The translations under genes and the position numbers were made by a program. From Chloroflexota bacterium (lineage in GTDB: Bacteria; Chloroflexota; UBA6077; FW602-bin22; CADDYW01), in the NCBI GenBank assembly GCA_021324795.1, contig JAJPIK010000068.1, positions 62,001 to 126,000 on the forward strand: 64,000 nt of DNA, in the 5' to 3' direction. The stretch's first letter is position 1. Each line of letters begins with the position of its first letter. Below the pieces are notes generated by a model. That model searched no databases. It saw nothing but the letters and a program-made list of their open reading frames with translations, and was not told where the DNA came from. Positions 6,004 to 45,930 of the stretch are shown piece after piece.

Positions 6004-6122
6004 CTGTCCTCCGCGAACAATAGTTTCGTTTCTTTGCAGCCGATGCCAAGGCCGATTATACTTCCAACGAACATAGCACAATGGGGCAGGTCGAGTCACC
6101 AGCCAGGAAAGATAAAAGCATT

Positions 6123-7175
6123 ATGCCCGCGATGACTTCAGAAACCCGTTTTCTGGCGGCTTGTCGTCGCCAATCTGTCGACATGACGCCGGTTTGGTTC
6201 ATGCGCCAGGCCGGACGTTGTCTACCGGCTTACCGCGAGCTCCGGACCCGCTACGATATCATGACGCTCGCCAAGACGCCGGAACTCTGTTCCCAGGTCA
6301 CGTTGATGCCGGTCGACCGCTTCAAGGTCGACGGTGCGGTGATGTTCGCTGACATTATGCTGCCGGTCGAGGCAATGGGCGTATCACTGGAGATTCAGCC
6401 CGAGATCGGGCCGATCATTCATCAGCCGATCCGTAGCCGTGCCGCGGTCGATGCGCTCCAGGTGCGCGAGGCCGAGGAAGCGACGCCATTCGTCTTCGAG
6501 GCGATTCGCATGGTCCGTCGCGAACTGGCCGGCGGCAAGGCCGCCTTGATCGGCTTTTCGGGAGCGCCGTTTACCATCGCCTGCTACTTGATCGAAGGCC
6601 GTCCGTCGCGCGACTATACCAAGGCCAAGGCGCTCATGTTCGGCGAGCCGGAGCTTTGGCATGCGCTTTTGAGTAAAGTCTCAGAGGTCGTCGTCCGTTA
6701 TCTGCGCGCCCAGATCGCAGCCGGGGCACAGGTGGTCCAGCTCTTTGATAGCTGGGTCGGGGCGCTCGCTCCTCAGGACTACGAGGAATACGTCCTGCCG
6801 CACACCAGGTACATCTTCGATGGCTTGGGTAACGCCGGGGTGCCGACGATCCATTTTGGCACCGGCACGGCGACGTTGCTGGACGGGATGACCCGAGCCG
6901 GCGGTGACGTGATTAGCGTCGACTGGCGAATTCCCTTGGATCATGCCTGGGCGCAGATCGGCACGGACCGGGGCATCCAGGGTAATCTGGATCCCGTGCT
7001 CTTACTTGCGCCCTGGGAGCGGCTCGAAAAGGGCATGCAAGACGTTTTGCAGCGCGCCGGCGGGCGACCGGGCCACATCTTCAATCTGGGCCACGGCGTG
7101 CCTGCCGAAACCGATCCAGACGTGCTCACGCGCGTCGTCGAGGCGGTCCATCGGGCGACCGCCCGGAAGGGATGA
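6123..7175 (+). CDS. hemE: HemE, uroporphyrinogen decarboxylase
   Basis: This 350-residue enzyme converts uroporphyrinogen III to coproporphyrinogen III in heme synthesis. The signature PVWFMRQAGRCLPAYRELR lies near residue 20. ADIMLPVEAMGV holds the catalytic aspartate, GFSGAPFTIACYLIEG is near residue 155, and FGTGTATLL and QGNLDP follow. The ATG at 6123 lies 12 bp after AGGAAAG; the ATG at 6132 is an alternative. Its stop codon overlaps the hemH start (ATGA), so the two are translationally coupled. Confidence 0.96.
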   Translation: MPAMTSETRFLAACRRQSVDMTPVWFMRQAGRCLPAYRELRTRYDIMTLAKTPELCSQVTLMPVDRFKVDGAVMFADIMLPVEAMGVSLEIQPEIGPIIHQPIRSRAAVDALQVREAEEATPFVFEAIRMVRRELAGGKAALIGFSGAPFTIACYLIEGRPSRDYTKAKALMFGEPELWHALLSKVSEVVVRYLRAQIAAGAQVVQLFDSWVGALAPQDYEEYVLPHTRYIFDGLGNAGVPTIHFGTGTATLLDGMTRAGGDVISVDWRIPLDHAWAQIGTDRGIQGNLDPVLLLAPWERLEKGMQDVLQRAGGRPGHIFNLGHGVPAETDPDVLTRVVEAVHRATARKG

Positions 7176-8161
7176 TGATGAGCGACGTACTGACGAAATC
7201 AACCAGTAAGCCAACCATCGCCACCATCGGGGTTCTCTTGATGACCTTCGGCTCGGCTCCGAAGCCAGAGGACGTGCCGGCCTACCTCGCCAGCGTGCGC
7301 GGTGGTCGGCCTGCTCCGGACGATCTGGTGGCCGAGTTTCAGCGACGTTATCGGGTCGTCGGTGGCTCGCCACTCATTGAGATTACCCGCCAGCAGGCAG
7401 CGGTGTTACAGACCGAACTAGCCCACGAGCGGCCGGGTGGCCCGCGTTTCGTCGTCTCGATCGGCATGCGCCACTCGCCGCCTTTCATCGGCGAGGCCAT
7501 GCGCGAGCTGGCCGAGCGAGGCATCTCCGAGGTTATCGCGGTGATCCTCTCGCCGCAGTATTCCCCCTACATTATGAGTGGCTACCATAAAGCGGTCGAA
7601 AATGCCTGCGCTCAGCTCGCCGCCGAGGGCAAACCGGTCAAAGCGCGGGTGGCCGGAGCTTGGCATCTCAATCCTCACTTCCTCGACGCCTTGGCGGAGC
7701 GGGTACAGGAAGCGCTCGCGAGCTTCCCTCCTGATCTGCGAGACCGCGTGCCGCTGTTGCTCACCTCGCACAGTCTGCCCAAGCGGGTCGTCGATCACGA
7801 GCCGGACTACCTCAACCAGCTTCAAGAAACGGTGCGCGCGCTCGCCACGCGTGTCGGTCTGTCCGACGATCGCTGGCAATTTGCCTATCAGAGCGCCGGC
7901 CACACTCCGGAGGAATGGCTCAAGCCGGATATGAAAGATCTACTGCCCGGGCTTCGCGAGCGTGGTCATCGTCATGTCCTGATGGTGCCGGTCCAATTTC
8001 TGAGCGATCACCTGGAGATTCTCTACGATATCGACGTCGCGGCACGCGAAGAAGCGGAATCCCTCGGCATCGCCTTCAAGCGGATCGAGTCGCTGAACCT
8101 CTCGCCGCGGTTTATCCAGGCACTAGCCGACGTGGTACTGGGCGAGTACGACCGGAGGTAG
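7172..8161 (+). CDS. hemH: HemH, ferrochelatase
   Basis: This 329-residue ferrochelatase inserts Fe2+ into a porphyrin. The N-terminus has GVLLMTFGSAPKPEDV and the conserved GGSPL. IGMRHSPPFIGEAM holds the catalytic histidine, LLTSHSLPKRV follows, and FAYQSAGHTPEEWLKPD carries the catalytic glutamate region. It shares ATGA with hemE. In Gram-positive bacteria the enzyme acts on coproporphyrin III (CpfC), and that route is plausible here, but no coproporphyrinogen oxidase or decarboxylase gene is in view to decide. Confidence 0.94.
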   Translation: MMMSDVLTKSTSKPTIATIGVLLMTFGSAPKPEDVPAYLASVRGGRPAPDDLVAEFQRRYRVVGGSPLIEITRQQAAVLQTELAHERPGGPRFVVSIGMRHSPPFIGEAMRELAERGISEVIAVILSPQYSPYIMSGYHKAVENACAQLAAEGKPVKARVAGAWHLNPHFLDALAERVQEALASFPPDLRDRVPLLLTSHSLPKRVVDHEPDYLNQLQETVRALATRVGLSDDRWQFAYQSAGHTPEEWLKPDMKDLLPGLRERGHRHVLMVPVQFLSDHLEILYDIDVAAREEAESLGIAFKRIESLNLSPRFIQALADVVLGEYDRR

Positions 8162-8165
8162 GTAT

Positions 8166-8933
8166 GTGAGCTTACCGACGGGCGCATCTGACTGGACGAA
8201 CTCGCTTCACCCTCTTCACCTAGGGGAGGCCCGCATTGAACGCACTGATGCGGGTCTCCGCCTGATCCGCCTGCCGTCCACTGCTGCGATCTATTCCGAC
8301 GCCGAGCTACTTGGCCGCGAGCCGAATCGCTGGCGACCGCCGCTCAGTTTGATCGTCCGGGCCCGCTTCAGTCACCCGGTGGAGTGGCTACGGGGCACGG
8401 CTGGCTTCGGCTTTTGGAACGCCGGAATCGGCCCGACCGTGCGCCGTCCGCGTCCGCCTCGCGCGGTGTGGTTTTTCTTTGGCGGACCGCCATTCGACGT
8501 TCCTTTGGCACTGGGCGTGCCGGGGTATGGCTTCAAGGCTGCCGTACTCGATGCGCAGCGCCTGCTGTTCTTTGCTCTCCTTCCGTTTGCACCACTCGGC
8601 TTCCTCTTGATGCGTCAGCCAACGCTCTACCGCTGGTTCTGGCCGATCGTTCAGACAGCGATCGGCGTCGCCGAGGTCGACTTGAGTGAACTCGATCTGA
8701 CGGCCACTCACTCGTACAGGCTCGACTGGCGTGACGGTACCGCGACCTTTGGAGTCGACGGTCAAGAGGTGATGACCGCACCAGCACCGGCCGGACCGCT
8801 CGAATTAGTGATCTGGATTGATAACAGCTATGCCATCGCCACGCCCCAGGGACGCTTTAGCCTCGGACTCGTCGCGGCGTCGGAAACGCAGTGGTTAGAG
8901 ATCGAGAATGTCGAGGTACGAGTAGAAGGATGA
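8166..8933 (+). CDS. Unknown protein, third gene of the hemE-hemH operon
   Basis: This 255-residue protein starts at a GTG 4 bp after the hemH stop, with GGAGGTAGG just upstream, so it is almost certainly co-transcribed. I do not recognise a family with certainty. The alternating strands (GFGFWNAGIGP, SYRLDWRDGTATFGVDGQEV, LELVIWIDNSYA, WLEIENVEVRVEG) look like a concanavalin A-like beta sandwich. A hydrophobic stretch lies at about residues 130-155 (LLFFALLPFAPLGFLLM). No catalytic motif is evident. A role linked to heme is suggested only by position. Confidence 0.72.
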   Translation: MSLPTGASDWTNSLHPLHLGEARIERTDAGLRLIRLPSTAAIYSDAELLGREPNRWRPPLSLIVRARFSHPVEWLRGTAGFGFWNAGIGPTVRRPRPPRAVWFFFGGPPFDVPLALGVPGYGFKAAVLDAQRLLFFALLPFAPLGFLLMRQPTLYRWFWPIVQTAIGVAEVDLSELDLTATHSYRLDWRDGTATFGVDGQEVMTAPAPAGPLELVIWIDNSYAIATPQGRFSLGLVAASETQWLEIENVEVRVEG

Positions 8934-9000
8934 CCAAGCCAGGAATCAGATTTTTCACCACCGACGATACATACACTGACCCCTTAGCCAAGTAGCCTTC

Positions 9001-9030
9001 ACCTTAACCTTCTCCCCAGGAAAGGGAATA
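9001..9030. repeat. Short copy of dispersed repeat family 1
   Basis: CCTTCTCCCCAGGAAAGGG lies in the gap between the convergent ends of the hem operon and the MBL-rhodanese gene. It resembles the arms of the repeats at 2314 and 48185. It may act as a terminator stem. Confidence 0.35.
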
Positions 9031-9041
9031 CCCAGGCGGGC

Positions 9042-10166
9042 TCAGCGGTTGTGGCCAATTACCCCCGCGTGTGCCCATTCCGACTCGGCGACCCGTGGCT
9101 TTTCGAGCGTGGTGTCTCCGTAGGAAACGGGCTTGCCGGCGTTGATCCAGGCTTCGGTCCCTCCTCGCATACTAACGACATGCCCTATGCCGACTTGCTT
9201 GAGAAACTGCGCGGCGCGCAGCGAGCGGACTCCGCCCTGACAGATCGCAAAAACTGGCCGGTCGCGAGGAATCTCCGCCAGACGGGTTGCGAGATCCGCT
9301 TGGGGTAGATTGATCGCGCCGGGCACATGGCCGTGGGCGTATTCTTCTGGCTCCCGGACGTCAAGAAGGAAGGCATTGTCCGGGCGCGACTCGAGCGCAG
9401 CGAGGTCGACTTCCTCGACCGATGGCGCGGTGGTCAACATCGCCCAGGGGAGATCGGCCAGGCCACGGTTGGTAGCTTCGATCGCGGTGATGTTCAACGG
9501 ACGGGCCGGCACCTCGCTGATCAGCTTGGCGATGAAAGGCGTTTTGTCGAGCCGCGCGAGCGGGTTATAGAGACGCTCGAATCCAACGGTCGTGCTCGGC
9601 CGCCCGCACATGCCGGCGCCACAGGGGCCTTCGAAGTGACCGGGAAAAACCGCGACCCAGTCCGGTAGCCGCAGCAGGCGATTCAGGCTTTCGTACTGCT
9701 GCCCGGCGTCGCCGCCTCCGAAGTCCGGCCGCCCGACGTCGCCGACGAGCAGCGAGTCGCCAGTCAGTACCATTGAAGGCTCCGGGCTGCGAGGCGGGTT
9801 GATGATCAAGATCGAGATCATTTCGGGGCGATGCCCCGGGGTGTGAAGAATCCGGAGCCGGAGCTGGCTAAGGGATAGCTCTTCGCCATCTTTGAGACCC
9901 CGGAACGCATAGGAGACCTGCGCGGCTTCGTGGAGGCAGAGGGTCGCGTTGTGGGCCGTGGCCATCTGCCGAGCACCGGATATATGATCAGCGTGGACGT
10001 GGGTGTCGATGACGTAGCGCAAGCGAAAGCGGCGCTCCCGGAGCAAAGCCTCGTACTGCTCGGTCATGATCGACGGATCGACAATGGCGGCTTCGTAGGT
10101 CTGGCGCGACGCGATGACGTAGGACGCGCAGCCACACCGCTCGTCGAGGATCTGCTTGAAGTACAT
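9042..10166 (-). CDS. MBL-fold hydrolase fused to a rhodanese domain (persulfide dioxygenase-like)
   Basis: This 374-residue protein starts at the ATG at 10166, after GGAGG. Residues 1-230 are a metallo-beta-lactamase fold of the ETHE1/glyoxalase II-like type: DTHVHADHISGA gives the HxHxDH motif, and HTPGHRPEM, LTGDSLLVGDVGRPDF and FPGHFEGPCGAGM supply the other ligands. Residues 265-350 are a rhodanese domain with LLDVREPEEYAHGHVPGA and the active-site loop ICQGGVRS. Such fusions oxidise glutathione or low-molecular-weight persulfides and move sulfane sulfur. The thiol used here is unknown. No sulfur gene is adjacent. Confidence 0.9.
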   Translation of the reverse strand: MYFKQILDERCGCASYVIASRQTYEAAIVDPSIMTEQYEALLRERRFRLRYVIDTHVHADHISGARQMATAHNATLCLHEAAQVSYAFRGLKDGEELSLSQLRLRILHTPGHRPEMISILIINPPRSPEPSMVLTGDSLLVGDVGRPDFGGGDAGQQYESLNRLLRLPDWVAVFPGHFEGPCGAGMCGRPSTTVGFERLYNPLARLDKTPFIAKLISEVPARPLNITAIEATNRGLADLPWAMLTTAPSVEEVDLAALESRPDNAFLLDVREPEEYAHGHVPGAINLPQADLATRLAEIPRDRPVFAICQGGVRSLRAAQFLKQVGIGHVVSMRGGTEAWINAGKPVSYGDTTLEKPRVAESEWAHAGVIGHNR

Positions 10167-10311
10167 CGTCGGCCTCCTGGCAGTGTGAATCAATAGCCAC
10201 GCTCGCGAGCACCGAGTTCTCTCTGCCATTCTAGCATGTCGATGTAAAAAGTGTTGTACCTAAGGCAATAGGCATATTCAACTCATTAGGAATGGATCTT
10301 GCGCTCCTATC

Positions 10312-10779
10312 ATGTTCCCTCAACTGGCGTCGCTGATAATCCGTGGGGTGGCGAGGCTGACCTTGAAATCACTCTTGTACTTCCTATTGCTCGGCGGGGT
10401 CAACCACCAAATTACCATCATCGTAGTCGAGTCGCTCCTGTTCCGTGGCTTTCGACAATGGCTCGTCCGTCGCTCGCGCTGGCTGGGCGAGCTCGTGCGC
10501 TGCCACCTCTGCTTTGGCATGTGGGTCGGCTTCTTCATGGCACTGATCTTCCGTCCGCGCTTTGTCGACGTCCCACCCGTGCCCGGCGCTTCGCCAGGAA
10601 TCGATCGCGGTGTCCAAGCGCTGGCGACCTTTGTCGGCGATGCCTGCGCGATTGCCGTAGGAGGACGCATCTTTAACGAGCTGCTTGGCATTGCCCGGCG
10701 CGAGGTTGGCTTGCTGGAGGAGGAGACCGAACTGGTCGAAGAAGAGCGTGAGATGCTCGAACACGGCGGGGCGAGATGA
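10312..10779 (+). CDS. Small membrane-associated protein, DUF1360-like
   Basis: This 155-residue protein has hydrophobic segments at about residues 15-40 and 62-80. Its central CHLCFGMWVGFFMA motif resembles the C-x2-C, W-x-G pattern of DUF1360 proteins. The C-terminus is a highly acidic helix (EEETELVEEEREMLE) that may form a coiled coil. The start is uncertain because no clear Shine-Dalgarno sequence precedes the ATG. It is followed 70 bp later by the FAD oxidase gene. The function of the family is unknown to me. Confidence 0.6.
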   Translation: MFPQLASLIIRGVARLTLKSLLYFLLLGGVNHQITIIVVESLLFRGFRQWLVRRSRWLGELVRCHLCFGMWVGFFMALIFRPRFVDVPPVPGASPGIDRGVQALATFVGDACAIAVGGRIFNELLGIARREVGLLEEETELVEEEREMLEHGGAR

Positions 10780-10849
10780 CGCTAGTCGTGCCGCGCCGGT
10801 TTTGCTTTCTCGCTCACTCCATGGTAGAAAACCAGAGGAGTGACCAGTA

Positions 10850-12277
10850 ATGAGTCGACACAATTCCAGTACAACTGCTGCTTCCGCGGTTATCGCAACT
10901 CTCCAATCCAAGCTTGGCCCCGAGCAGGTCTTGACCAGCCCGGAGGCAATCGCCCGCTACCCGGGCTTTGTCTGGTTTCCGCCTCGGCCGCGCATGCCGT
11001 TGCCATATCCACTTGGCACCCCGGCGGCAATCGTCCGTCCACGCGCGACCGACGACGTCGCGATGGTGCTTCATCAAGCAACCGCGGCCGGCGTGCCGGT
11101 CGTCCCTTATGGCGCGGGGACCGGCGTCATGGGTGGCGCTTTGCCGATTCGCAATGGTATCATCCTCGACGTCGGGGCAATGAATCGTATCCGCTCGATC
11201 GAGCCGGGTAATCGCTTAGCCCGGGTCGAAAGCGGCGTCATCCTCGGCGAGCTTGCCCAGGCTGCCGAACGCCAAGGACTGCTATTTGCCCACGATCCTT
11301 GGAGTCAGCCAATCGCCACCGTCGGCGGTGCGGTGTCGACGAACGGTGTGGGATACCTCGCCGCCGGTTACGGAGCGATGGAAGACCAGGTACGTGGTCT
11401 CGAGGTCGTTCTGCCGACCGGCGAGGTAGTGAGCTGGGCCGGCGCGGCGAAGCGGTCAGCCGGGCCGGATCTCTGGCCGATGTTCGTTGGTGCCGAGGGT
11501 ACACTCGGGGTAATCACCAGTATCGTCGTTCAGCTCTTTCCCTGGCCGGAGGCGCGTGCGCTGACGGGAGTTCGCTTCCCCAAATTCGCCGATGGGTTTC
11601 GAGCGATCGATCGTTTGGTTGGCGTCGGCTTGCAGCCGGCGATGATCGACTACGAGGAAGAAGAGGGCGAGCCATTGGCAGCGCCCTCTCGGTTATTCCT
11701 GGTCTTCGACGGTCCTGCCGAGGTCGTCAGCGCCGCGACCAGTCTAGCACTGCGGATCGCGTGCGACTATCAGGGAACCGATCTCGGCGTGGCCGCGGCA
11801 GCCCATTTCTGGGAGCATCGCCACGACAGCGCGCTCCGCTTTCTCAACCGTGATGCCTCGCTACTGCCTCGCCGCCGACCGCGTTACGGTAGCCGCTACC
11901 TCGACGTTGCCGTGCCGATTGAGCGTGTACTTGACTACTGCGCGGCGGTCGTTCAACTCGCGCAGGAGCACGGCGTCGCCGCCCATTCGTTTGGAATCTG
12001 GGGGCGGCCGGAGCTCGTTTCGGTGATCCTCGAAGGCTCGGATGTCGCCCCTGTTAAGAACGGCGGGCTCTCACCGCTCGACCAGGCCACCGACGCTGCT
12101 CTGCGTCTGGCGCGCGCCCAAGGTGGCTCGATTGAATACTGCCACGGCGTTGGTATTCGTTTCGCCCACCTGCTTCCCGAAGAGCTTGGCCACGGCTACG
12201 CTCTCTTCCGCCATCTCAAGGCTACCTTGGACCCGGCGGGAATTCTCAATCCGGGCAAGCTGAGCACGGGTGACTAA
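10850..12277 (+). CDS. FAD-linked oxidase, GlcD / D-lactate dehydrogenase type
   Basis: This 475-residue protein starts at an ATG 10 bp after GAGGAG. It has an N-terminal FAD-binding PCMH domain with the pattern VPVVPYGAGTGVMGGALP (about residues 78-96) and WSQPIATVGGAVSTNGVGYLA. The C-terminal FAD-oxidase domain ends with GSIEYCHGVGIRFAHLLPEE and LDPAGILNPGKL. The family oxidises 2-hydroxyacids such as glycolate and D-lactate. GlcE and GlcF partners are absent here, so it is probably a single-subunit enzyme. The acceptor and substrate are not known. Confidence 0.9.
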   Translation: MSRHNSSTTAASAVIATLQSKLGPEQVLTSPEAIARYPGFVWFPPRPRMPLPYPLGTPAAIVRPRATDDVAMVLHQATAAGVPVVPYGAGTGVMGGALPIRNGIILDVGAMNRIRSIEPGNRLARVESGVILGELAQAAERQGLLFAHDPWSQPIATVGGAVSTNGVGYLAAGYGAMEDQVRGLEVVLPTGEVVSWAGAAKRSAGPDLWPMFVGAEGTLGVITSIVVQLFPWPEARALTGVRFPKFADGFRAIDRLVGVGLQPAMIDYEEEEGEPLAAPSRLFLVFDGPAEVVSAATSLALRIACDYQGTDLGVAAAAHFWEHRHDSALRFLNRDASLLPRRRPRYGSRYLDVAVPIERVLDYCAAVVQLAQEHGVAAHSFGIWGRPELVSVILEGSDVAPVKNGGLSPLDQATDAALRLARAQGGSIEYCHGVGIRFAHLLPEELGHGYALFRHLKATLDPAGILNPGKLSTGD

Positions 12278-36439: not shown

Positions 36440-37309
36440 GTGGCAAGAGTGAGTGTGGTCGCAGCGTTGTCGGAGAATATATCCGCCAAATCCAGGTATC
36501 TTACCCTAGATCCTCGTGCGCTCGCTCAGAAGGTCGTGGGCGAGCCGGCGAAAACTCTTGAACTCCAGATTCTCGAGCTCGTTGACTGGATGATCCATGA
36601 GCTTGCAACACCACTCGCTTCGCTGACGATTAGTGCCGAGGTGCTCGCGAGCAGTTTTGAGACAATGGAGCCAGACGAAGCTCGTGAGGCTCTTCGGCGC
36701 ATTCACCGCAATACATTCTGGTTGAAAGCACTCGTCGACAACTTCAAGCAATCGGTCCGAGCGAGTCGAACTGAGCCGAATTTTCGTCTGGTTGATTTGA
36801 GCACGTGTTTGGAGACGGCCTGTTCTTTGGTTCAACCAATCATTGACTCCCGAGGGCAAACGGTGCTGGTCGGTGGAATGCCGGACCAGCCATTGGTTTG
36901 GGGGGATTGTCACTGGATCGAGCACATTCTCGTAAACTTGCTCATGAATGCGAGCAAGTATTCGAACAAAGGTGGCTCGATCTGGCTTGATATCGTCGAG
37001 GTCGAAAATGCCTTCCAGGTTCGGGTAATCGACTCGGGGCCTGGTATTCGCCTTCACGACCAGGCGCGTATCTTTCGACCCTATACGCGGGGCGCGGCAG
37101 CGAAACGTGGGGGGGTGGAAGGCATGGGATTGGGGCTGCACGTTGTCAAGAGCCTGGTTGAAGCACAGGGGGGATCGGTTGGCGTCCAGAGCGTCCTCGG
37201 GAGGGGATCAGTCTTCTGGGTTGCATTGCCAGGCTATCGGCGCGACGAGACAGCAACGCCGGTTACGTCCGCGCTTGCTGGATGTGCTGCTGCTTCAGAG
37301 CAAATGTAA
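36440..37309 (+). CDS. Cytoplasmic sensor histidine kinase, first gene of the lasso operon
   Basis: This 289-residue kinase has the H-box WMIHELATPLASL (His53), N-box LVNLLMNASKYS near residue 165, G1 DSGPGI and G2 GMGLGLHVV. It has no transmembrane segment and no recognised sensor domain, only about 45 residues before the H-box, so its input must be cytoplasmic or a partner. GTGs at 36440, 36449 and 36455 are all possible starts; GGAGG at 36433-36437 is best spaced for 36449. The response regulator follows 67 bp later. The pair begins the operon that carries the lasso proteases, which implies signal-controlled peptide production. Confidence 0.9.
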   Translation: MARVSVVAALSENISAKSRYLTLDPRALAQKVVGEPAKTLELQILELVDWMIHELATPLASLTISAEVLASSFETMEPDEAREALRRIHRNTFWLKALVDNFKQSVRASRTEPNFRLVDLSTCLETACSLVQPIIDSRGQTVLVGGMPDQPLVWGDCHWIEHILVNLLMNASKYSNKGGSIWLDIVEVENAFQVRVIDSGPGIRLHDQARIFRPYTRGAAAKRGGVEGMGLGLHVVKSLVEAQGGSVGVQSVLGRGSVFWVALPGYRRDETATPVTSALAGCAAASEQM

Positions 37310-37376
37310 TGGGCAGGTAATCAATCCGTCACGGATGATCGTTGATAGTGGTTAATTTGGGGATGAGGTGTTTGTG

Positions 37377-38072
37377 ATGAAGATTCTGCTGGCGGACGAT
37401 GACTCCGACATGTTGGATGTGACGGCCTATGCGTTACGGCGGGAAGGCTTCAACATCATCGTTGCTACGAATGGTGCCCAAGCTCTCCGGCGATGGCAAT
37501 CAGATGATCCTGACTTGGTTTTACTCGATGTGAGCATGCCCCGAGGAAATGGCTTCGAGGTATGCCGAAAAATACGCCAAACGTCCACGACTCCGATCAT
37601 TATGCTCACCGGAGCTGATGACGAAGAGCATGTTGTCAAAGGTTTTTTGCACGGCGCGGACGACTATGTTACCAAGCCTTTTAGCGCGAAGCAGTTGGCG
37701 TTGCGCATTCGGGCGGTGTTGCGTCGTTGCTCGACCAATCCGATACGTGAAGCCGTCCCAGAGTTGCGCGTTGGCGACTACGTCTTGGACGTGGAATCCT
37801 GCCAGGCACATCGAGAGGGTGAAATCGTCCAGCTCACTGCGCTGGAATTCCGAATTCTGCATGCGTTGACGGTAAATGAAGGACATGTCGTGAGCTTTCG
37901 CCGCCTGGTCGAGCGAGCTTGGGGATACGATGGCGGCGATGCGTCGATGCTCAAGACTCATGTAAGTCATATTCGGAAAAAGCTTCACTTGCAGCCGGGC
38001 TGCCCGGGCTATATTGGTGTCGTGCATGGCGTTGGCTACTATCTCTTACGCTCGTCGCAAGGGGCAGCCTAG
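37377..38072 (+). CDS. OmpR-family response regulator
   Basis: This 231-residue protein has a receiver domain with acidic residues ADDDSD, phosphoacceptor Asp51 in VLLDVSMP, and the lysine in YVTKPF. The C-terminal winged helix of OmpR/PhoB type has LTALEFRILHALTVNEGHVV and HVSHIRKKL. The ATG at 37377 has GAGG 8 bp upstream; a GTG at 37368 would add three residues. It is the partner of the kinase just upstream. Its likely targets are its own promoter and the promoter of the cyclase-precursor operon. Confidence 0.93.
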   Translation: MKILLADDDSDMLDVTAYALRREGFNIIVATNGAQALRRWQSDDPDLVLLDVSMPRGNGFEVCRKIRQTSTTPIIMLTGADDEEHVVKGFLHGADDYVTKPFSAKQLALRIRAVLRRCSTNPIREAVPELRVGDYVLDVESCQAHREGEIVQLTALEFRILHALTVNEGHVVSFRRLVERAWGYDGGDASMLKTHVSHIRKKLHLQPGCPGYIGVVHGVGYYLLRSSQGAA

Positions 38073-38171
38073 CTAATCGCGATTTTGTTCGCTCACCGGT
38101 GAGGTTTAGCCAGAGCGAAACACGGAGTGCGCCAGTTTCTGAACGGCGTACAATGGGAGATGGATGAGACC

Positions 38172-38627
38172 ATGCAGGGCATTCGCCTCATTCGCCGTTT
38201 TTGGGGATTGGCGCCATCGGATCGCCGATTGTTAGTGCTTGCCGTCTGGCAGCTTTGCTGGGTTGGCATGCTGGCGAGAATATTCGGTTTTCAGTCGCTT
38301 GTGCGCCAGGCGCAAGGAATCCGTCCGCCCAACGATTACACCCCAAGCCCGGTCGAGCTAGAACGGGCATACGTTTATGCCCACTGGCTCGAGTCGGCTG
38401 CCCGCCGACGGCTCATTAACGCGTACTGCCTCCAACGTTCACTCGCTCTCCACCGATGGCTCCAACGGGAAGGGATGCCCAGTGTGCTCCAGATCGGCGT
38501 TTGGAAAGGGGGAGACGTCTTGCACGCCCACGCTTGGGTCGAACTTGGGAATCACGTGGTGAACGATCGACCCGCCGCGATCGCCTCGTTTGTTCCTTTA
38601 GCTCAAAATCTTCCCAAGCAAGTGTGA
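38172..38627 (+). CDS. Lasso peptide leader peptidase B2 (transglutaminase-like)
   Basis: This protein of about 151 residues belongs to the Transglut_core3 family that removes the leader from lasso precursors. The Cys-His-Asp catalytic residues are Cys86 (NAYCLQRSLALHRWL), His120 (VLHAHAWVEL) and Asp132 (VVND). An N-terminal amphipathic part, VLAVWQLCWVGMLARIFGF, is typical of B2 proteins. It needs the B1 protein (40140) to present the leader. Start choice between ATG 38160 and 38172 rests on spacing from GGGAG; a GTG at 38127 is also open. It is transcribed with the two-component genes. Confidence 0.9.
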   Translation: MQGIRLIRRFWGLAPSDRRLLVLAVWQLCWVGMLARIFGFQSLVRQAQGIRPPNDYTPSPVELERAYVYAHWLESAARRRLINAYCLQRSLALHRWLQREGMPSVLQIGVWKGGDVLHAHAWVELGNHVVNDRPAAIASFVPLAQNLPKQV

Positions 38628-38971
38628 GATCGCTTGTTATTGCAGTCGGATCTCAACCCCTTCGTAACCCAGCCTTTACTCGCATTGCACACCACTCTCT
38701 GAAGATATTCTCCAGATAGTGCCTGGGCGGACGACGAAGCTGTTCGACGACGAACAGAAGCTTGTTGGAGTGCGAAGCTCGAAAACGGCAGTGGTCCTTT
38801 CCCCCAAGGGGCGTCAGCCGGATTTACGAGTGTCTTTGTCTGGCCTGTGGATTGGCTGATGAAGAGATGGCGGTACGAGGGCGGCATTTCAACGTCGAAT
38901 CCTTCACCACATTGGAGGCAGGATTCCGAAGTTGGCCCACCAGAAGACTGCAAGGAGGCGAGGCAACCGGG
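38628..38971 (+). other. 344 bp gap between B2 and the DegT-like gene
   Basis: No gene is supported here. The DegT-like frame stays open upstream to 38762, with an in-frame ATG at 38867 (MAVRGRHFNVES), but this part lacks homology to the family N-terminus. A short stem CCCC-AA-GGGG lies at about 38802-38811. The stretch may be a remnant of a lost gene or a long leader region. Confidence 0.4.
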
Positions 38972-40108
38972 ATGCGCGTTCCATTCGTAGATCTCAAGGC
39001 GCAGTATGCGACGATCAACAATGAGATCGTCAAAGAGGTCATGACTGTGCTCAAGGGGATGAATCTGCTGCTTGGACCAAACGTTACGGCATTCGAAACC
39101 GAGTTCGCCGCCTACTGTCAGACACAGTACGCGATTGGGGTCGGCTCAGGAACTGATGCTCTCCATTTGGCGCTCCGCGCGTGCGGTGTCCGCGCCGGAG
39201 ACGAAGTCATTACGGTCTCCCATAGCTTCATCGCCACGGCGGAAGCGATTGTTATGGTGGGAGCAACGCCAGTCTACGTCGACATCGATCCCCATACATA
39301 CACGATGGACCCCGCTCAAATCGAGGCGGCGATTTCCGAGCGCACGCGCGCGATTGTGCCAGTCCATTTGTACGGCCAGATGGCCGATATGGATGCAATC
39401 ATGGCGATTGCGCGACACCATGGCCTGGCCGTGGTCGAAGATGCTTGTCAAGCAGCTGGCGCGAGCGATCATGGGCGAAAGGCAGGCGGCATCGGCGATG
39501 CCGCGGCTTTTAGCTTCAGTCCGACGGCGAACTTAGGAGCATATGGGGATGGCGGTGCAGTCACGACGAATTCTCGGGCAATTGCCGAGGAAGTGCGACG
39601 ATTGCGCAGTCACGGCCTATTGGCAGAGGATGAATGCGAGGAAATGGGGGTTAATTCGCGGCTTGACGAGCTTCAGGCAGCCATTTTGCGGGTGAAGCTG
39701 CGTCACCTCGACCGGTGGAATGATCTGCGTCGCCTCCACGCCGAGACGTATCGTCAATTGCTCAGCGATTCGCGAAAGTTGCGACTCCCGCATACCCGTT
39801 CCGGCGCTTCGCACGTCTATCGGCATTACGTAGTCCAAATCGAGGACCGAGACTACGTTCGCCAGTCACTTGGCGCGCTCGGGATCGAATCGGGTGTTCA
39901 CTATCCAATCCCGATTCACTTGCAGAAGGCATCCGAGGCGATCGGGAGGACGGTCGGTATGTTGCCGGAAACACTCCGCATTTCCCAGCACATTCTCTCT
40001 CTTCCAATGTACGCCGAGCTCGAACCGGAGCACTTATCCTATGTCGCGGCATGCTTACGGACGGTAACGGGGTTGGAACGGTCCAAGTTGCGGGTAAACT
40101 TCGGTTAG
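38972..40108 (+). CDS. DegT/DnrJ/EryC1/StrS-family protein with Ala at the PLP lysine position
   Basis: This 378-residue protein starts at ATG 38972, after GGAGGCGAGG. It is full length and keeps the family's PLP pocket: GSGTDALHLAL, the aspartate in VVEDACQAAGA, NSRLDELQAAIL and HVYRHYVVQ. At the Schiff-base motif, normally FSFxPTKNLG, it reads FSFSPTANLGAYGDGGA, with Ala186 encoded by GCG at 39527-39529. Without this lysine it cannot hold PLP as an internal aldimine or perform ordinary sugar transamination. It may have another chemistry, a structural role, or be inactive. Family members usually make aminosugars, and no sugar gene is nearby. It sits inside the lasso operon between B2 and B1. 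Confidence 0.93.
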   Translation: MRVPFVDLKAQYATINNEIVKEVMTVLKGMNLLLGPNVTAFETEFAAYCQTQYAIGVGSGTDALHLALRACGVRAGDEVITVSHSFIATAEAIVMVGATPVYVDIDPHTYTMDPAQIEAAISERTRAIVPVHLYGQMADMDAIMAIARHHGLAVVEDACQAAGASDHGRKAGGIGDAAAFSFSPTANLGAYGDGGAVTTNSRAIAEEVRRLRSHGLLAEDECEEMGVNSRLDELQAAILRVKLRHLDRWNDLRRLHAETYRQLLSDSRKLRLPHTRSGASHVYRHYVVQIEDRDYVRQSLGALGIESGVHYPIPIHLQKASEAIGRTVGMLPETLRISQHILSLPMYAELEPEHLSYVAACLRTVTGLERSKLRVNFG

Positions 40109-40139
40109 GGCCGTAAGAGACGAGGATCAATTGGGAGGA

Positions 40140-40430
40140 ATGAGGTTGCGGCAAGTCAGTCGAGTGCCAGCGATCGAGGAAACAGTTGCTTGGGCTGATC
40201 TCGAAGGGGAGTCGGTCCTTTTGAACGTCCTCGAAGGCCTCTATTTTGGTCTAGACGAAGTGGGGACGATGATCTGGAAGCTGGTCTCAGAAGGACTCGC
40301 CGCAGACCAAATCGTCGCGCGACTGCTCGAAGAGTTCGAGGTGGCGCCTGAGCAACTCGAAGGTGACGTCGCGGATTTCTTGCTGACACTCGAAGCGAAG
40401 AAGTTGATCCACTTCGTCGAACAGCATTGA
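40140..40430 (+). CDS. Lasso peptide B1, PqqD-like RiPP recognition element
   Basis: This protein of about 96 residues is a stand-alone PqqD-type recognition element. The patterns VAWADLEGESVLLNVLEGLY, FGLDEVGTMIWKLVSEG and FEVAPEQLEGDVADFLLTLE are typical: a beta-hairpin then a three-helix bundle. In lasso systems it binds the YxxPxLxxxG leader and hands it to B2. Three starts are close (TTG 40131, ATG 40140, TTG 40146), with GGGAGG at 40133-40138. Its stop codon is 9 bp from that of the convergent kinase gene. Confidence 0.92.
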   Translation: MRLRQVSRVPAIEETVAWADLEGESVLLNVLEGLYFGLDEVGTMIWKLVSEGLAADQIVARLLEEFEVAPEQLEGDVADFLLTLEAKKLIHFVEQH

Positions 40431-40439
40431 AGCATCCGA

Positions 40440-41411
40440 TCATGCGCTCCACCCGGTCAATGGATCCGGTTGGCACCTACGCGGCTTCGTACACTGCATC
40501 TGCTCTTCCACGAGCCGTGCTCCCTCGGAGAGCAACGCGAGCGAACGCGGCCGCGCGAGGTCGAAGACGGGCACGGTCCGGACCAGAGCAGTGCATTGTC
40601 GCAGGTGTTGAGAAGCCGCTTTGCCTCGCAGTAACATTGCCCCAAAGCGCGCGGCATAGGAGTTACTGATCAGACGGAGAATCGCGTCGCGAGGCGGAAG
40701 CAGGGTAAGCTTACTCTCCGTGGCCACGGAGAGTAAGTATATTCCGGCAAGCGGAATGGGGTGGCTCTCGAAGCTCTCGGCCATCCGGCGAGAACGCTTC
40801 TCGTATCCCGGTGCGACCCGAGGAAGCAGGGCCGGATCGCCGCCAACCGATCTGACCGCATCGGGCCACAGCTTGACTTGCGGGAAGCCCGAGAGCACGA
40901 TCGGTCGTTCGCCGCTGACGTCCAACGCGACAACGTCGTCCGCCAGCAGACTGTGACCTCTCGCGCATAACGTCGCCGCCATGGTTGACTTGCCATTTCC
41001 CTTACCCGCGACGAAGACCACGGCCTGGCCACCGACCGCCACGGCGCTGGCGTGGAGAACGAGGTGTCCTCGTTGCTGGAGGAGAAGCGCCATGATGGTA
41101 CCCAGGAGAGGCAAACGAACGATTGATTCGTCGTCTTCCGAGCATGGCTCGACCACGATTTCATTGCCGTGTCGGACCAGATAGGCCCCGACGCCAGCCC
41201 AGGCCAGATAAGCCTGGTCGGCGCCGACGAGATAGCGCTCTTGCTCCCTGCCATCGCTCGATAGAGAAAAACCGACCTTCCCTCGCCGGATGTTCACGTC
41301 GGGGTTGTCGCTGGGAGACGGTTGCAGCTCTGGTAGAACGAGTGCCGAGCGGATGCCCAGTCCGTAGGCGGTGTAGTGATGCATCGATTTCTCACGTGCC
41401 TTTATTGTCAC
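40440..41411 (-). CDS. HPr kinase-like protein of the lasso cluster
   Basis: This 323-residue protein resembles the C-terminal domain of HPr kinase/phosphorylase. The P-loop is VAGKGNGKSTMAATL near residue 135, followed by LLADDVVALD (Walker B). The N-terminal 120 residues have a beta-rich pattern as in lasso-cluster kinases. In paeninodin-type systems such a kinase phosphorylates the C-terminal serine of the precursor, and the precursor here ends in serine. It follows the exporter stop by 3 bp; the GTG at 41411 and ATG at 41384 are possible starts. Phosphorylation is inferred, not shown. Confidence 0.88.
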   Translation of the reverse strand: MTIKAREKSMHHYTAYGLGIRSALVLPELQPSPSDNPDVNIRRGKVGFSLSSDGREQERYLVGADQAYLAWAGVGAYLVRHGNEIVVEPCSEDDESIVRLPLLGTIMALLLQQRGHLVLHASAVAVGGQAVVFVAGKGNGKSTMAATLCARGHSLLADDVVALDVSGERPIVLSGFPQVKLWPDAVRSVGGDPALLPRVAPGYEKRSRRMAESFESHPIPLAGIYLLSVATESKLTLLPPRDAILRLISNSYAARFGAMLLRGKAASQHLRQCTALVRTVPVFDLARPRSLALLSEGARLVEEQMQCTKPRRCQPDPLTGWSA

Positions 41412-41414
41412 CGT

Positions 41415-43211
41415 TTAGACCCCATCTGAGACCATCGTATCGAGATATGCCGAGGACGCGGGCGGGAGCGCGTCTCGGAGACGCCAGTCTCCACCAAATT
41501 GCAGTTCGTAGAGTTCGCGGAAGAGTCCCGGACGTCTCAGTAGCTCCGCCGGTGTCCCCTGCTGGACAACTTTTCCTTCGCTAAGGACCAGGACTCTATC
41601 GGCTTGCTGAACCGTCGTCAGGCGATGGGCAATGACGAATGTCGTGCGGCCGCGGGTAAGATCAGCTAACGCGGCTTGGAGAAGCGTTTCGGAACGCGCG
41701 TCGAGCGCCGAGGTGGGTTCATCGAGGACGAGAATGCGTGGATCGCGTAGGAATGCGCGCGCAATCGCCAGGCGCTGCTTCTGTCCCTCTGAGAGCTGAA
41801 AACCCCGCTCGCCCACGTTCGTGTCTAGCCCATTGGGAAGTCCCTCGATAAATTCCCAGGCATTCGCGGCGCGGAGCGCGGCAATAATTTGCGCATCGTT
41901 GGCATCCTCGTACCCCAGGCATACGTTTTCGCGAATCGTCCGGGCGAACAGAAATGTATCCTGGAAGACCACTCCAATCTGGCGTCGGAGACCCTCCAGT
42001 GTTAAGTCGCGGAGATCCTGGCCATCGAGAAGCACCCGCCCGCAGGTCGGATCGTAAAAGCGACAGATGAGACTGGCGATAGTCGTCTTTCCCGCGCCGC
42101 TCGGACCAACGAGAGCGATCATCTGCCCGGGCCAAGCGGTGAAAGAAATGTCTTGGAGCACGGGATGATCCGACGTGTAGGCGAAACCAACGCCCTGGAA
42201 CTCAATCCGCCCTTCGACGTTACTGGGCCAGCGGGCATCCGGGCTTTCCGGAACGCGAGGGGTCTGATCGAGAAAGGACTGGAGGCGATCTGCCGTGCCC
42301 CGCGCTTTCTGGAGCGTACCGACCAGACCAAAGATTTGACTGGCCGGGGTGAAGGCGTAGCCGAAGAGTGAGCGCATCGCGATGAGTGTCCCGAGAGTCG
42401 TTTCGCTGCGAATGACGAGATAGCCGCCGTAGCCAAGGATAATCGCGCTTACCGCGAGTGACAGGACCAATTGGCCGGTCCCGAGCCCGGTCTCCAGCAT
42501 TGCGATGCGCATACGCAGGCGAAGCAGGTCCCCCAGACTTCGACTGAGATCCCTTCGTTGTCGGTTCTCTTCTCCGAAGGTGACGAGCTCGCGCAGGCCG
42601 GCTAACCCTTCGTGCAGCCGTTCGTTTACTTCCGCGGCCTTCGCTTGCGCACGCCGCATGGCGGGCCGTAGGGGCCGGGTGGCAAACCAGAGACAGACGA
42701 CTACCAGCGGGGGCAGTATCCCGCTAGTCACTGCAAGCTGCCAGTTCAACGAGAACATGAAGGCCAGCGCTAGTACGAGGGTCACAACGTTGCCCAGTAT
42801 GCCGAGCAGTCCGTTACCCAGCAGGCTTGTCAAATTGGGAATGTCATTCACGAAAAGGGAGAGCGTCCTCCCACTGTGTTCCTGCCGAGAGAAGGCAAGC
42901 GACAGCATCTCGACGTGGGCGAATAGTCGTTCCTGAAGCCGTTTAGTCAGCCGCTCGGCGAAGTATTTCTGGAGTAGTCGTCCGGACGTCGAAAGGCAGG
43001 TCGAGCCGAGCCAGAGACCAACGTAAAGGGTCAGAAGTGGCGGCAGCAGGCTGAGTCGCTGGCCCAGGATCACTGCGTCGATCAGTTGCTTTTCGACAAG
43101 TGGGAGTCGCAACGTTATCAGCGGCGTCAAGACTGCGATAAGAACGAGGCCTGCCAGCAGCCACCAGGCACCGGGCTCTTCGCCAAAGAGCAAGCGTCGA
43201 ATCAGTTGCAT
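41415..43211 (-). CDS. ABC transporter (lasso peptide exporter, D protein)
   Basis: This 598-residue half-transporter has six membrane segments in residues 1-320, then an ATPase domain with Walker A GPSGAGKTTIASL, Q-loop FQDTFLFA, signature LSEGQKQRLAIARAF, Walker B ILVLDEPTSALD and switch IAHRLTT. It lacks an N-terminal C39 peptidase domain, as expected because B2 removes the leader. It should export the mature lasso peptide and give self-immunity. It lies about 205 bp downstream of the precursor gene, with a strong hairpin between. Confidence 0.95.
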   Translation of the reverse strand: MQLIRRLLFGEEPGAWWLLAGLVLIAVLTPLITLRLPLVEKQLIDAVILGQRLSLLPPLLTLYVGLWLGSTCLSTSGRLLQKYFAERLTKRLQERLFAHVEMLSLAFSRQEHSGRTLSLFVNDIPNLTSLLGNGLLGILGNVVTLVLALAFMFSLNWQLAVTSGILPPLVVVCLWFATRPLRPAMRRAQAKAAEVNERLHEGLAGLRELVTFGEENRQRRDLSRSLGDLLRLRMRIAMLETGLGTGQLVLSLAVSAIILGYGGYLVIRSETTLGTLIAMRSLFGYAFTPASQIFGLVGTLQKARGTADRLQSFLDQTPRVPESPDARWPSNVEGRIEFQGVGFAYTSDHPVLQDISFTAWPGQMIALVGPSGAGKTTIASLICRFYDPTCGRVLLDGQDLRDLTLEGLRRQIGVVFQDTFLFARTIRENVCLGYEDANDAQIIAALRAANAWEFIEGLPNGLDTNVGERGFQLSEGQKQRLAIARAFLRDPRILVLDEPTSALDARSETLLQAALADLTRGRTTFVIAHRLTTVQQADRVLVLSEGKVVQQGTPAELLRRPGLFRELYELQFGGDWRLRDALPPASSAYLDTMVSDGV

Positions 43212-43350
43212 TGACTTCGGTAACTCCCTAAGAGGTAACGGTACGAGACTGCCATGCCCTGACCCTGTCGCCCGGACGTGAACGTCCGGCGGAATTTGTT
43301 TAACGGATATCGCTTACCTGCAGCTTGTCAGTGATTACGTGCAGAATCTG

Positions 43351-43383
43351 GCCATAGCGGCGCCCATCAGGCGCCGCTATGGC
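43351..43383 (-). terminator. Perfect 14 bp hairpin downstream of the lasso precursor gene
   Basis: GCCATAGCGGCGCC and its exact reverse complement are separated by CATCA. No T-tract follows on the minus strand, so it is more likely an attenuator or an mRNA-stabilising 3' stem that sets precursor expression above that of the exporter. A smaller stem, GCGGCG-CTT-CGCCGC, lies at 43401-43415, right after the precursor stop. Confidence 0.65.
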
Positions 43384-43416
43384 AGGCGAACGACGGAATC
43401 GCGGCGCTTCGCCGCC

Positions 43417-43587
43417 CTAGGAGCAGATCAGACCGGGATGCGGCTCGCTGGGGTTGCAGACGTTGTTGACACTGATCAACTGCCCATTGACAATAATGTT
43501 GTCCGGGCTTCCTCCCGTCTGTCCAGCCGTGATCTGTTCCAGCCGGCCATACTCGACCAGCGTTGGAGGCCGGTAGGCTCTCTTCAT
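43417..43587 (-). CDS. Lasso peptide precursor A (56 residues)
   Basis: This short gene starts at ATG 43587, 7 bp after a near-perfect AGGAGGTGA site. The leader is 21 residues and has the motif YxxPxLxxxG as Y5, P8, L10, G14 (YRPPTLVEYG). Thr20 is at position -2, the lasso signature. The 35-residue core begins GQTGGSPD: Gly1 and Asp8 would close an 8-residue macrolactam ring. The tail has Cys23 and Cys34, which could form a disulfide, and ends in Ser35. The core is long for a lasso peptide. It sits between the cyclase and exporter genes on the same strand. Confidence 0.93.
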   Translation of the reverse strand: MKRAYRPPTLVEYGRLEQITAGQTGGSPDNIIVNGQLISVNNVCNPSEPHPGLICS

Positions 43588-43630
43588 CTATTCACCTCCT
43601 TTCGCCATGCTTCACGCCGTGAACCAGCCT

Positions 43631-43651
43631 CGCCGCGACTTGTTCGCGGCG
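43631..43651 (-). promoter_or_regulatory. Stem-loop in the leader of the precursor gene
   Basis: CGCCGCGA and TCGCGGCG form a perfect 8 bp stem with loop CTTGT, 44 bp upstream of the precursor start. It lies between the cyclase stop and the precursor and could be a processing site or attenuator. No promoter with good -35 and -10 boxes was found here. Confidence 0.45.
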
Positions 43652-43729
43652 GCCCGGGCATGAGGTTTAGCTTTATCACTGTCTTTCCCTGGACGTCGTC
43701 TAAGCGCAAGAGCGACCGGTCTGATGGCT

Positions 43730-45736
43730 TTAGGCCTCTGCCGTCGCAAGACAGAAATCGGGCTCAGAAGGAAAGTCTGAATTCCAAGGTGGAGGGACGG
43801 TCACTCGTTCGGGCCGCGGCAAGGTGAGTGCCCGCAGCCAGGTCTCCAGCCCCACTAGCTGCATCAGATAGACAATGTCCGGGGCCGGCCCGCCGGCCCG
43901 TATCGCCTCCAGTCGGGACCAGAAGCGCTGCTGATCCACGTAGCCTCGACGGGCAATCTCCGACCGCCCGGTCGGACCGAAGGCGGCTTCGTAGAGCGGC
44001 CACTGACGCTTGATCTCGCTCTCGAGGACACCATGAAAAACAGTCTTCGACGTTCGAGTGCGAATGCTCTCCGGGAGGATTCCGCGCATCGCCTGGCGAA
44101 CCAGTCGCTTCGACCCGGCATAGAAAGCATCGCTCTCGGGATGTGGGGCAAACTTCAGCTCCGGTGGAATCGCGAGCAGAAACTCGTGGAGCCGCCGATC
44201 CGCGAACGGTCGCCAGAACTCAAGCGGCCAGGGCACGGGATGTCGCGCGACCTCGGGCGGGTAAAGGATGCGGAACTCGGCCTCCCGCGTCGGATTTGAA
44301 AAGTATCGTCCTCTTTCCATCTCAAGAGCAAGTTGCCGGTGGCGTCGGACCAACTCCTGGCGCAGTGGTTCGGGTATCCAGAGTGGCAGGAAGGCCTCTT
44401 GGTTCCGTGCGATGGACCGTGCGAGATAGCTCGAATTGATCCACCGTTGCAGTGGAAGCGGCAAGAGGGGCGCCAAACAGTATAGGGCGATGATCTTGCG
44501 CAGCGATTCATCTGACCGCCGCCGATACGTCGAGAAGTACTGCCAGAAAGCCCTCAGTTGACCTCGGCGCAACAAAGAGTCGAAAACGAGCCAGGATCCG
44601 CCGACACACCCATCGGCAAGATCGCCGGTGAGGAGCGCACGCACGCCACTTTGGCAAGCTGTGCCGAAGAGCGCGTCGCGTCCTTCGCTGATGCCCAGGT
44701 TAGGGGCCTCTAGGAAGCCGCGTGGCTCGAGCTGTAATCGCCCTGCGAACTGACCACAGGAAATGTACCGTGCCGTGAATCCGTACTTCGCCTGAACTTC
44801 TTCTACCAGGGAGCGCTCGTCGCAGTCTAGGTGGTCGAAGACAAAGCTGAAGCTCGTGAAGCCGCGATCCTCAGCCTGCCCGGCGCGAAAGATCTCCTGG
44901 GCAACACTAACAACCGCTGAGGAGTCTAGTCCACCACTCAGCAACGCTCCGACCGGGGGTGAGCTCCGAAGTCGCACCTTTACCACATCGAAGAAGAGCG
45001 AGCGATAGTGCTCGGCATACTCCTCCTCCCGACGGTAACGCAGCTCGGCCGGTGCCTCGAATGTCCAATAGCGTCGAGTGTGCAAGGTGTTGCAATCGGC
45101 GAGGAGGAGATGTCCGGCCGGCAACGCCCAGATATCTCGGTAGAAGGTAGCCGCTTGGTCTTTCTCGTTTCGGAACATGTTGAGGGGAACGAGAAAGTCG
45201 AGGATGCGCTCGTCGTTCGATTCGATCGGGACCGACGGGTCTTGGAGAAGCTGCTGAATCTCGGATGCCACTGCGAGGACGCGAGCGTCGGCTCGATAGA
45301 AGAGTGACCGCTGACCACTGGTATCACGCGCGGCAATCAGACGCTGCTGTCGCGGATCCCAAACCACGAGGGCGAAGTCACCAAGCAGACGCTCGAACCC
45401 TCTCAGGCCCCACGTTTCATAGACCCGTAGGATGATCTCCGCGTCACTCGTCGATGCGGGCGGGGAGTCAGGCAGCCTTCCTAACAATTCCTCGCGATTG
45501 TCGAGGCGCACGTCGGCAATCACGACGCAACTGGTTCGTGGGCTGACCAGCGGCTGCTGCTCCCGAAGCTCCTCCGGGGTGATTGCTAGCTTACCGAATC
45601 CGAGGCTGACGATACCAAAATCGCGGACCCATTGACCGTCAATGGCCCGATAGGGGGCTGCCGCGAGCATCGCGCGAACAGCGGCCGGGTCGGCATTCTG
45701 CCCGTCGCGGCAGAGGAGAGCGGTGAGACTGCTCAC
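43730..45736 (-). CDS. Lasso cyclase C (asparagine synthetase B-like)
   Basis: This 668-residue protein has an N-terminal glutaminase-like domain and a C-terminal asparagine synthetase domain. The ATP pyrophosphatase loop is GALLSGGLDSSAVVS near residue 265. The start GTG at 45736 has GGAGG just upstream; it gives Ser at position 2 (MSSLTALLCRDGQ) instead of the catalytic Cys2 of asparagine synthetase, so glutamine hydrolysis is lost, as in lasso cyclases. LLTGDLADGCVGG replaces the usual GDGGDELFGG. It would adenylate Asp8 of the core and close the ring with the Gly1 amine. The precursor gene follows directly. Confidence 0.93.
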   Translation of the reverse strand: MSSLTALLCRDGQNADPAAVRAMLAAAPYRAIDGQWVRDFGIVSLGFGKLAITPEELREQQPLVSPRTSCVVIADVRLDNREELLGRLPDSPPASTSDAEIILRVYETWGLRGFERLLGDFALVVWDPRQQRLIAARDTSGQRSLFYRADARVLAVASEIQQLLQDPSVPIESNDERILDFLVPLNMFRNEKDQAATFYRDIWALPAGHLLLADCNTLHTRRYWTFEAPAELRYRREEEYAEHYRSLFFDVVKVRLRSSPPVGALLSGGLDSSAVVSVAQEIFRAGQAEDRGFTSFSFVFDHLDCDERSLVEEVQAKYGFTARYISCGQFAGRLQLEPRGFLEAPNLGISEGRDALFGTACQSGVRALLTGDLADGCVGGSWLVFDSLLRRGQLRAFWQYFSTYRRRSDESLRKIIALYCLAPLLPLPLQRWINSSYLARSIARNQEAFLPLWIPEPLRQELVRRHRQLALEMERGRYFSNPTREAEFRILYPPEVARHPVPWPLEFWRPFADRRLHEFLLAIPPELKFAPHPESDAFYAGSKRLVRQAMRGILPESIRTRTSKTVFHGVLESEIKRQWPLYEAAFGPTGRSEIARRGYVDQQRFWSRLEAIRAGGPAPDIVYLMQLVGLETWLRALTLPRPERVTVPPPWNSDFPSEPDFCLATAEA

Positions 45737-45930
45737 TCGGCCTCCAGGCACGCCCAGCTTGCTCCACATCGTACCGAGTTGACGATGTGCCTATCGTGGC
45801 AGGAACCATCGCAGCGGTTCTCACTTACCCCTTGCTCATCTGGTCGGGGATCTGCCGTGCTGGACACGCGCCCAACCTGTTCTCTAGTCGAAGTTACCAT
45901 CATCAACTACTCACCACCACTTTTCCCCAA

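Follow-up and report, generated by a model that had tools for sequence, protein, structure and literature searches.

A paeninodin-type HprK-like kinase in a Chloroflexota lasso peptide cluster with a conserved pair of tail cysteines and a serine-ending precursor

Introduction

Paeninodin and related lasso peptides of Bacillota are encoded by clusters in which split B1 and B2 genes are accompanied by an HprK-like kinase, such as PadeK or ThcoK, with a His-Lys-Asp-Asp set of catalytic residues and a precursor ending in serine. PadeK, ThcoK, and the SyanK kinase phosphorylate the C-terminal serine of linear precursors, and PadeK fails on the threaded peptide (PMC8498205, PMC9266682). A different site is used by the B1-assisted kinase BsfK of Bradymonas sediminis, which phosphorylates Ser3 in the ring of a precursor ending in Asp and also accepts Thr3; residues H148, G163, K169, S170, D186, and D187 of BsfK were found to be important (PMC10368454). 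Class IV lasso peptides (LP2006, pandonodin, and the felipeptins) carry two cysteines, both in the tail, and none is reported as phosphorylated in the reviews consulted.

The window analyzed here, 64,000 nucleotides of a Chloroflexota contig, holds a lasso peptide cluster that resembles each of these systems in part. With the PadeK/ThcoK clusters it shares the HprK-like kinase (K) and its catalytic residues, the split B1/B2 genes, and the terminal serine of the precursor, and the wider kinase group around K also contains a paeninodin-family kinase from Priestia. In contrast, K is only 29% identical to the Priestia kinase and follows the exporter gene D, with B1/B2 on the opposite strand, and the cyclase, the transporter, and the precursor, with its two tail cysteines, come from another lasso family. 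The alphaproteobacterial clusters, including that of SyanK, likewise have another cyclase lineage and lack the tail cysteine pair, although the alphaproteobacterial kinases fall in the same wider group as K, and those of Mesorhizobium and Paracoccus, whose precursors end in LTFS, stand close to it in the trees described below. K and BsfK are both HprK-like lasso kinases and have the same catalytic spacing. The two cysteines of the window precursor, as in class IV peptides, both lie in the tail, where a disulfide is predicted.

Gene content of the cluster

Profile searches of the window identified a complete lasso peptide cluster (B2, B1, K, D, A, and C) at 38127-45769. The minus strand is transcribed in the order C (45769-43730), an asparagine-synthetase-like macrolactam cyclase; A (43587-43417), the 56-aa lasso precursor; D (43211-41415), an ABC exporter; and K (41387-40440). 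Converging on these genes from the plus strand are a two-component histidine kinase and response regulator (36440-38072), which possibly regulate the cluster; directly downstream of them B2 (38127-38627), a transglutaminase-like leader peptidase (NF033537, 66.9 bits, above the cut-off); a DegT/DnrJ/EryC1/StrS aminotransferase gene (38972-40108); and B1 (40140-40430), a PqqD-like leader-binding protein (RRE). All PqqD, Asn_synthase, and GATase_7 matches exceeded the Pfam gathering scores. The locus thus combines a precursor with a lasso leader (NF033521), a PqqD-like B1, a B2 protease (NF033537), and a C cyclase, the set by which lasso clusters are recognized. The sequence-only reading had placed the kinase gene next to the precursor gene; in fact, the 1.8-kb ABC transporter gene (41415-43211) separates the two, and K adjoins D, directly downstream of it in an apparent operon.

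The precursor peptide

The precursor matches the lasso leader profile NF033521 at 21.3 bits (cut-off 19), and a near-perfect Shine-Dalgarno sequence, AAAGGAGGTG, stands immediately 5′ of its ATG. The 21-aa leader, taken as MKRAYRPPTLVEYGRLEQITA with Thr at position -2, fits the pattern YxxPxLxxxG...T. The core, GQTGGSPDNIIVNGQLISVNNVCNPSEPHPGLICS, comprises 35 residues with G1, D8, C23, C34, and a C-terminal Ser35 whose codon, TCC (43420-43422, minus strand), is followed by TAG, in agreement with the sequence-only reading. A search of plasmids with the precursor returned no match.

The core has the small first residue and the Asp/Glu at positions 7 to 9 expected of a lasso peptide, and G1 and D8 are present in 7/7 aligned precursors. 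Six precursors from related clusters have the same type of ring (G1...D8) and two tail cysteines, which are thus conserved in all seven sequences; the second cysteine lies 1 to 5 residues before the C terminus in the six relatives. C23 and C34 probably form a tail-tail disulfide in the product, and such a bond would make it a class IV (tail-tail) lasso peptide. The last residues of the six relatives are F, V, P, G, S, and S. Because serine makes up ∼14% of tail residues in the two-cysteine family and two of the six relatives end in it without having a kinase of the type found here, Ser35 is in itself unremarkable, and the proposal that a terminal serine is diagnostic of phosphorylation was rejected on this base rate.

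The kinase and its catalytic residues

The kinase open reading frame of the sequence-only reading (40440-41411, minus strand, 323 codons) is genuine, with an HprK-like C-terminal region recognized by Pfam and TIGR profiles. Translation probably starts at the ATG at 41387 (MHHYTAYGL..., matched in relatives), giving 315 aa, rather than at the GTG at 41411. K is a distant HprK homolog only and does not pass the curated HprK models: Hpr_kinase_C matched with an E value of 8.9e-7 (29 bits, short of the gathering score of 33.3), TIGR04352 with 9.5e-11, far under its cut-off, and TIGR00679, the curated HprK model, at 26.5 bits against a cut-off of 240. The Priestia paeninodin-family kinase likewise fails the curated models. 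In a PDB profile search with K, the only match was to HprK, within its P-loop region (E value 3.5e-10, profile positions 118 to 172).

The P-loop had been read as GKGNGKST and called intact. The Walker GK-S is indeed present, but that string has one residue too few for GxxxxGK[ST]; when the homologs are aligned, the motif is A-GKGN-GK-S (AGKGNGKST, 40983-41009, minus strand), in which Ala replaces the first Walker glycine and which fits the looser [AG]x4GK[ST]. Ala occupies this position in 11/61 rows (the window and 10 of the 60 other homologs) and Thr in one. The catalytic His112 (ATG numbering; 41052-41054, minus strand) is His in 61/61 homologs, and of the pair Asp150-Asp151 (40935-40940, minus strand), the first is D in 55/61 and E in 6/61, and the second D in 61/61. 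By spacing, H148, G163, K169, S170, D186, and D187 of BsfK correspond to H112, A127, K133, S134, D150, and D151 of K, so that among these six residues only the first glycine differs. Loss of the catalytic residues on structural alignment had been named as a finding that would refute the proposed phosphorylation; on a sequence alignment of the catalytic columns, His-Lys-Asp-Asp is retained.

Lineage of the kinase and the last residue of the precursor

When 400 Chloroflexota genomes were scanned, most of the lasso clusters that were readable had an HprK-like gene, and the precursor ends vary widely: HprK-like kinases also accompany lasso precursors whose last residue is G, V, F, P, T, or another. 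One such case is a second lasso cluster of the same genome (L076, G000:C13:10000-29900, 5660-11376; gene order B1 K C A D), which encodes a precursor with the core GVGGTAPDIPGIPNNICATGTVVNTSGSTVTITCASTSG, ending in CASTSG, and a kinase from another lineage than K. These counterexamples led us to reject the view that all HprK-like lasso kinases act on a C-terminal serine. Since many precursors of other kinases lack a terminal serine and BsfK acts on Ser3, the co-occurrence of a kinase gene and a serine-ending precursor is not diagnostic, and phosphorylation of a C-terminal serine cannot be predicted solely from the proximity of an HprK-like gene to a lasso precursor. The sequence-only reading had inferred modification of Ser35 from this co-occurrence and the P-loop; the inference gains support on other grounds, namely, that K belongs to a lineage whose precursors mostly end in serine.

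Kinase loci were collected from Chloroflexota, Alphaproteobacteria, Cyanobacteria, Bacillota plasmids, and one haloarchaeal plasmid; a pattern scan with a two-row kinase alignment contributed 10 loci. The trees were built without the characterized enzymes PadeK, ThcoK, SyanK, and BsfK, for which the Priestia paeninodin-family kinase, whose precursor (NF033524) ends in LTFES, served as a stand-in. A quick tree grouped K with the Priestia kinase in a 33-row clade supported at 95*; by way of this stand-in, K groups with the PadeK-type kinases of C-terminal serine. A careful tree, with the longest rows left out, gave a broad split into two kinase groups only 78/98 and placed K in a smallest starred clade (98/91) of nine rows, including those of Mesorhizobium and Paracoccus, in which 8/9 have serine-ending precursors.

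With the window excluded, precursors end in serine in 7/8 of the nearest clade and 12/38 elsewhere (Fisher p 0.006, a post hoc value that ignores kinship), and among Chloroflexota in 5/5 and 3/14, respectively (p 0.005, likewise post hoc and ignoring kinship). An independent-pairs test yielded just three pairs, two of them agreeing on average, which is too few for significance. Membership in the lineage is no guarantee of the site: precursors are never serine-ending in the cyanobacterial subclade of the wider group, and that of L216, the one exception in the nine-row clade, does not end in serine either.

Exchange of kinases between lasso families

The cyclase and transporter of the window belong, by sequence, to a lasso family whose peptides share an 8-residue ring and a conserved two-cysteine tail. 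In the cyclase tree, C falls with the two-cysteine-tail clusters at 100*; it is 50 to 60% identical to their cyclases versus 26 to 36% to others, and D is 49 to 53% identical to their exporters versus 28 to 43% to others. K shows the reverse pattern, with up to 45 to 47% identity to kinases of the other group versus 27 to 32% to those of two-cysteine clusters, and grouping K with the usual kinases of two-cysteine clusters was rejected by the AU test (p 0.017). Cyclase and kinase lineages otherwise mostly agree, the kinase label changing three times on the cyclase tree compared to a mean of 18 for shuffled labels. In two-cysteine clusters K lies upstream of C; in the window this slot holds no kinase and K follows D, and the kinase type usual for two-cysteine cyclases is absent from the cluster. 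A paeninodin-type lasso kinase is thereby placed in a cluster family with a conserved pair of tail cysteines, a natural case of kinase swapping.

The reciprocal exchange was observed at L189 (9048-12825), where a cyclase of the serine group is paired with a kinase from outside it and the precursor ends in Pro. We tentatively suggest that the type of kinase may set the end chemistry of the lasso peptide, that kinases have perhaps been exchanged across families with the last residue of the precursor changing to match, and that the window product would then combine a tail-tail disulfide with a C-terminal phosphoserine adjoining the disulfide cysteine. No such combination in one lasso peptide appears in the reviews consulted. 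Because the two exchanges run in opposite directions and each precursor has the expected last residue, the choice of site by the kinase is directly testable.

Proposed pathway and alternative readings

Since the kinase comes from a terminal-serine lineage and the peptide ends in serine, Ser35 is probably phosphorylated. The product of the cluster is probably a lasso peptide in which an 8-residue ring (Gly1-Asp8) is followed by a long tail bearing the cysteine pair, and K is probably a horizontally acquired, paeninodin-type HprK-like kinase phosphorylating Ser35 of the precursor. As PadeK, ThcoK, and SyanK modify linear precursors, K should by analogy act on Ser35 first, ahead of cleavage and cyclization, and may be assisted by B1, as is BsfK. 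The leader would then be removed by B1/B2, C would close the Gly1-Asp8 ring around a tail predicted to be threaded, and D would export the product, in which C23 and C34 probably oxidize to the tail-tail disulfide. Most likely, the product is a lasso peptide that is both phosphorylated and class IV-like (with a tail disulfide); its phosphorylation would be a new example of known chemistry.

K might instead phosphorylate another hydroxyl residue, such as Thr3 of the ring, with Ser35 incidental. The precedent is BsfK, with its activity on Ser3 and Thr3 (PMC10368454), and the window core has Thr at position 3, as do those of L063a and L068; moreover, within the wider group that includes K, cyanobacterial kinases are paired with precursors lacking a terminal serine. 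We regard this reading as unlikely, however, since the kinases nearest to K serve serine-ending precursors, position 3 varies within the precursor family (other members have H3 and G3), and T3 elsewhere goes with the other kinase lineage.

More doubtful still is that K acts on Ser35 with the phosphate as a handle, so that the peptide is polyphosphorylated or receives a further group as in pseudomycoidin. Polyphosphorylation is known for ThcoK and SyanK and phosphoglycosylation for pseudomycoidin, and the gene between B2 and B1 is of the sugar-aminotransferase type. Against this, profile searches found no nucleotidyltransferase among the genes of the cluster, and the DegT gene is absent from the other loci examined and may for this reason be a chance insertion.

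That K leaves the peptide unmodified, as a recent passenger, an inactive enzyme, or one with another substrate, and that Ser35 is there by chance is similarly improbable: the frequency of serine in the family tails, the Ala at the first Walker position, and the location of K outside its usual place in two-cysteine clusters would fit, but the open reading frame is intact, the four catalytic residues are conserved, and K follows D immediately in a cluster that lacks the usual kinase type.

Among these readings, phosphorylation of Ser35 in the linear precursor is preferred.

Other loci with related kinases

In six cyanobacterial loci (L217, L219, L220, L223, L224, and L225), kinases of the wider paeninodin-type group accompany precursors whose last residue is P, K, Q, N, or I. 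At another cyanobacterial locus (L215, 8332-9060), there are three precursors, one ending in LTFS and two in LTFSGTF; the C-terminal extension could be one that is trimmed or that blocks the kinase. Five alphaproteobacterial loci (L203, L204, L207, L246, and L247) combine the kinase with PqqD-like and asparagine-synthetase-like genes; neither a recognized B2 nor a typical lasso precursor was found in them, and they are possibly other RiPP systems. On a plasmid of the haloarchaeon Halopiger xanaduensis (L095, 7992-14483), the lasso genes B1, B2, C, and D are clustered with a kinase of the wider group to which K belongs; in this record two small hypothetical genes are annotated over the kinase reading frame, and the candidate precursor ends in QPAPT.
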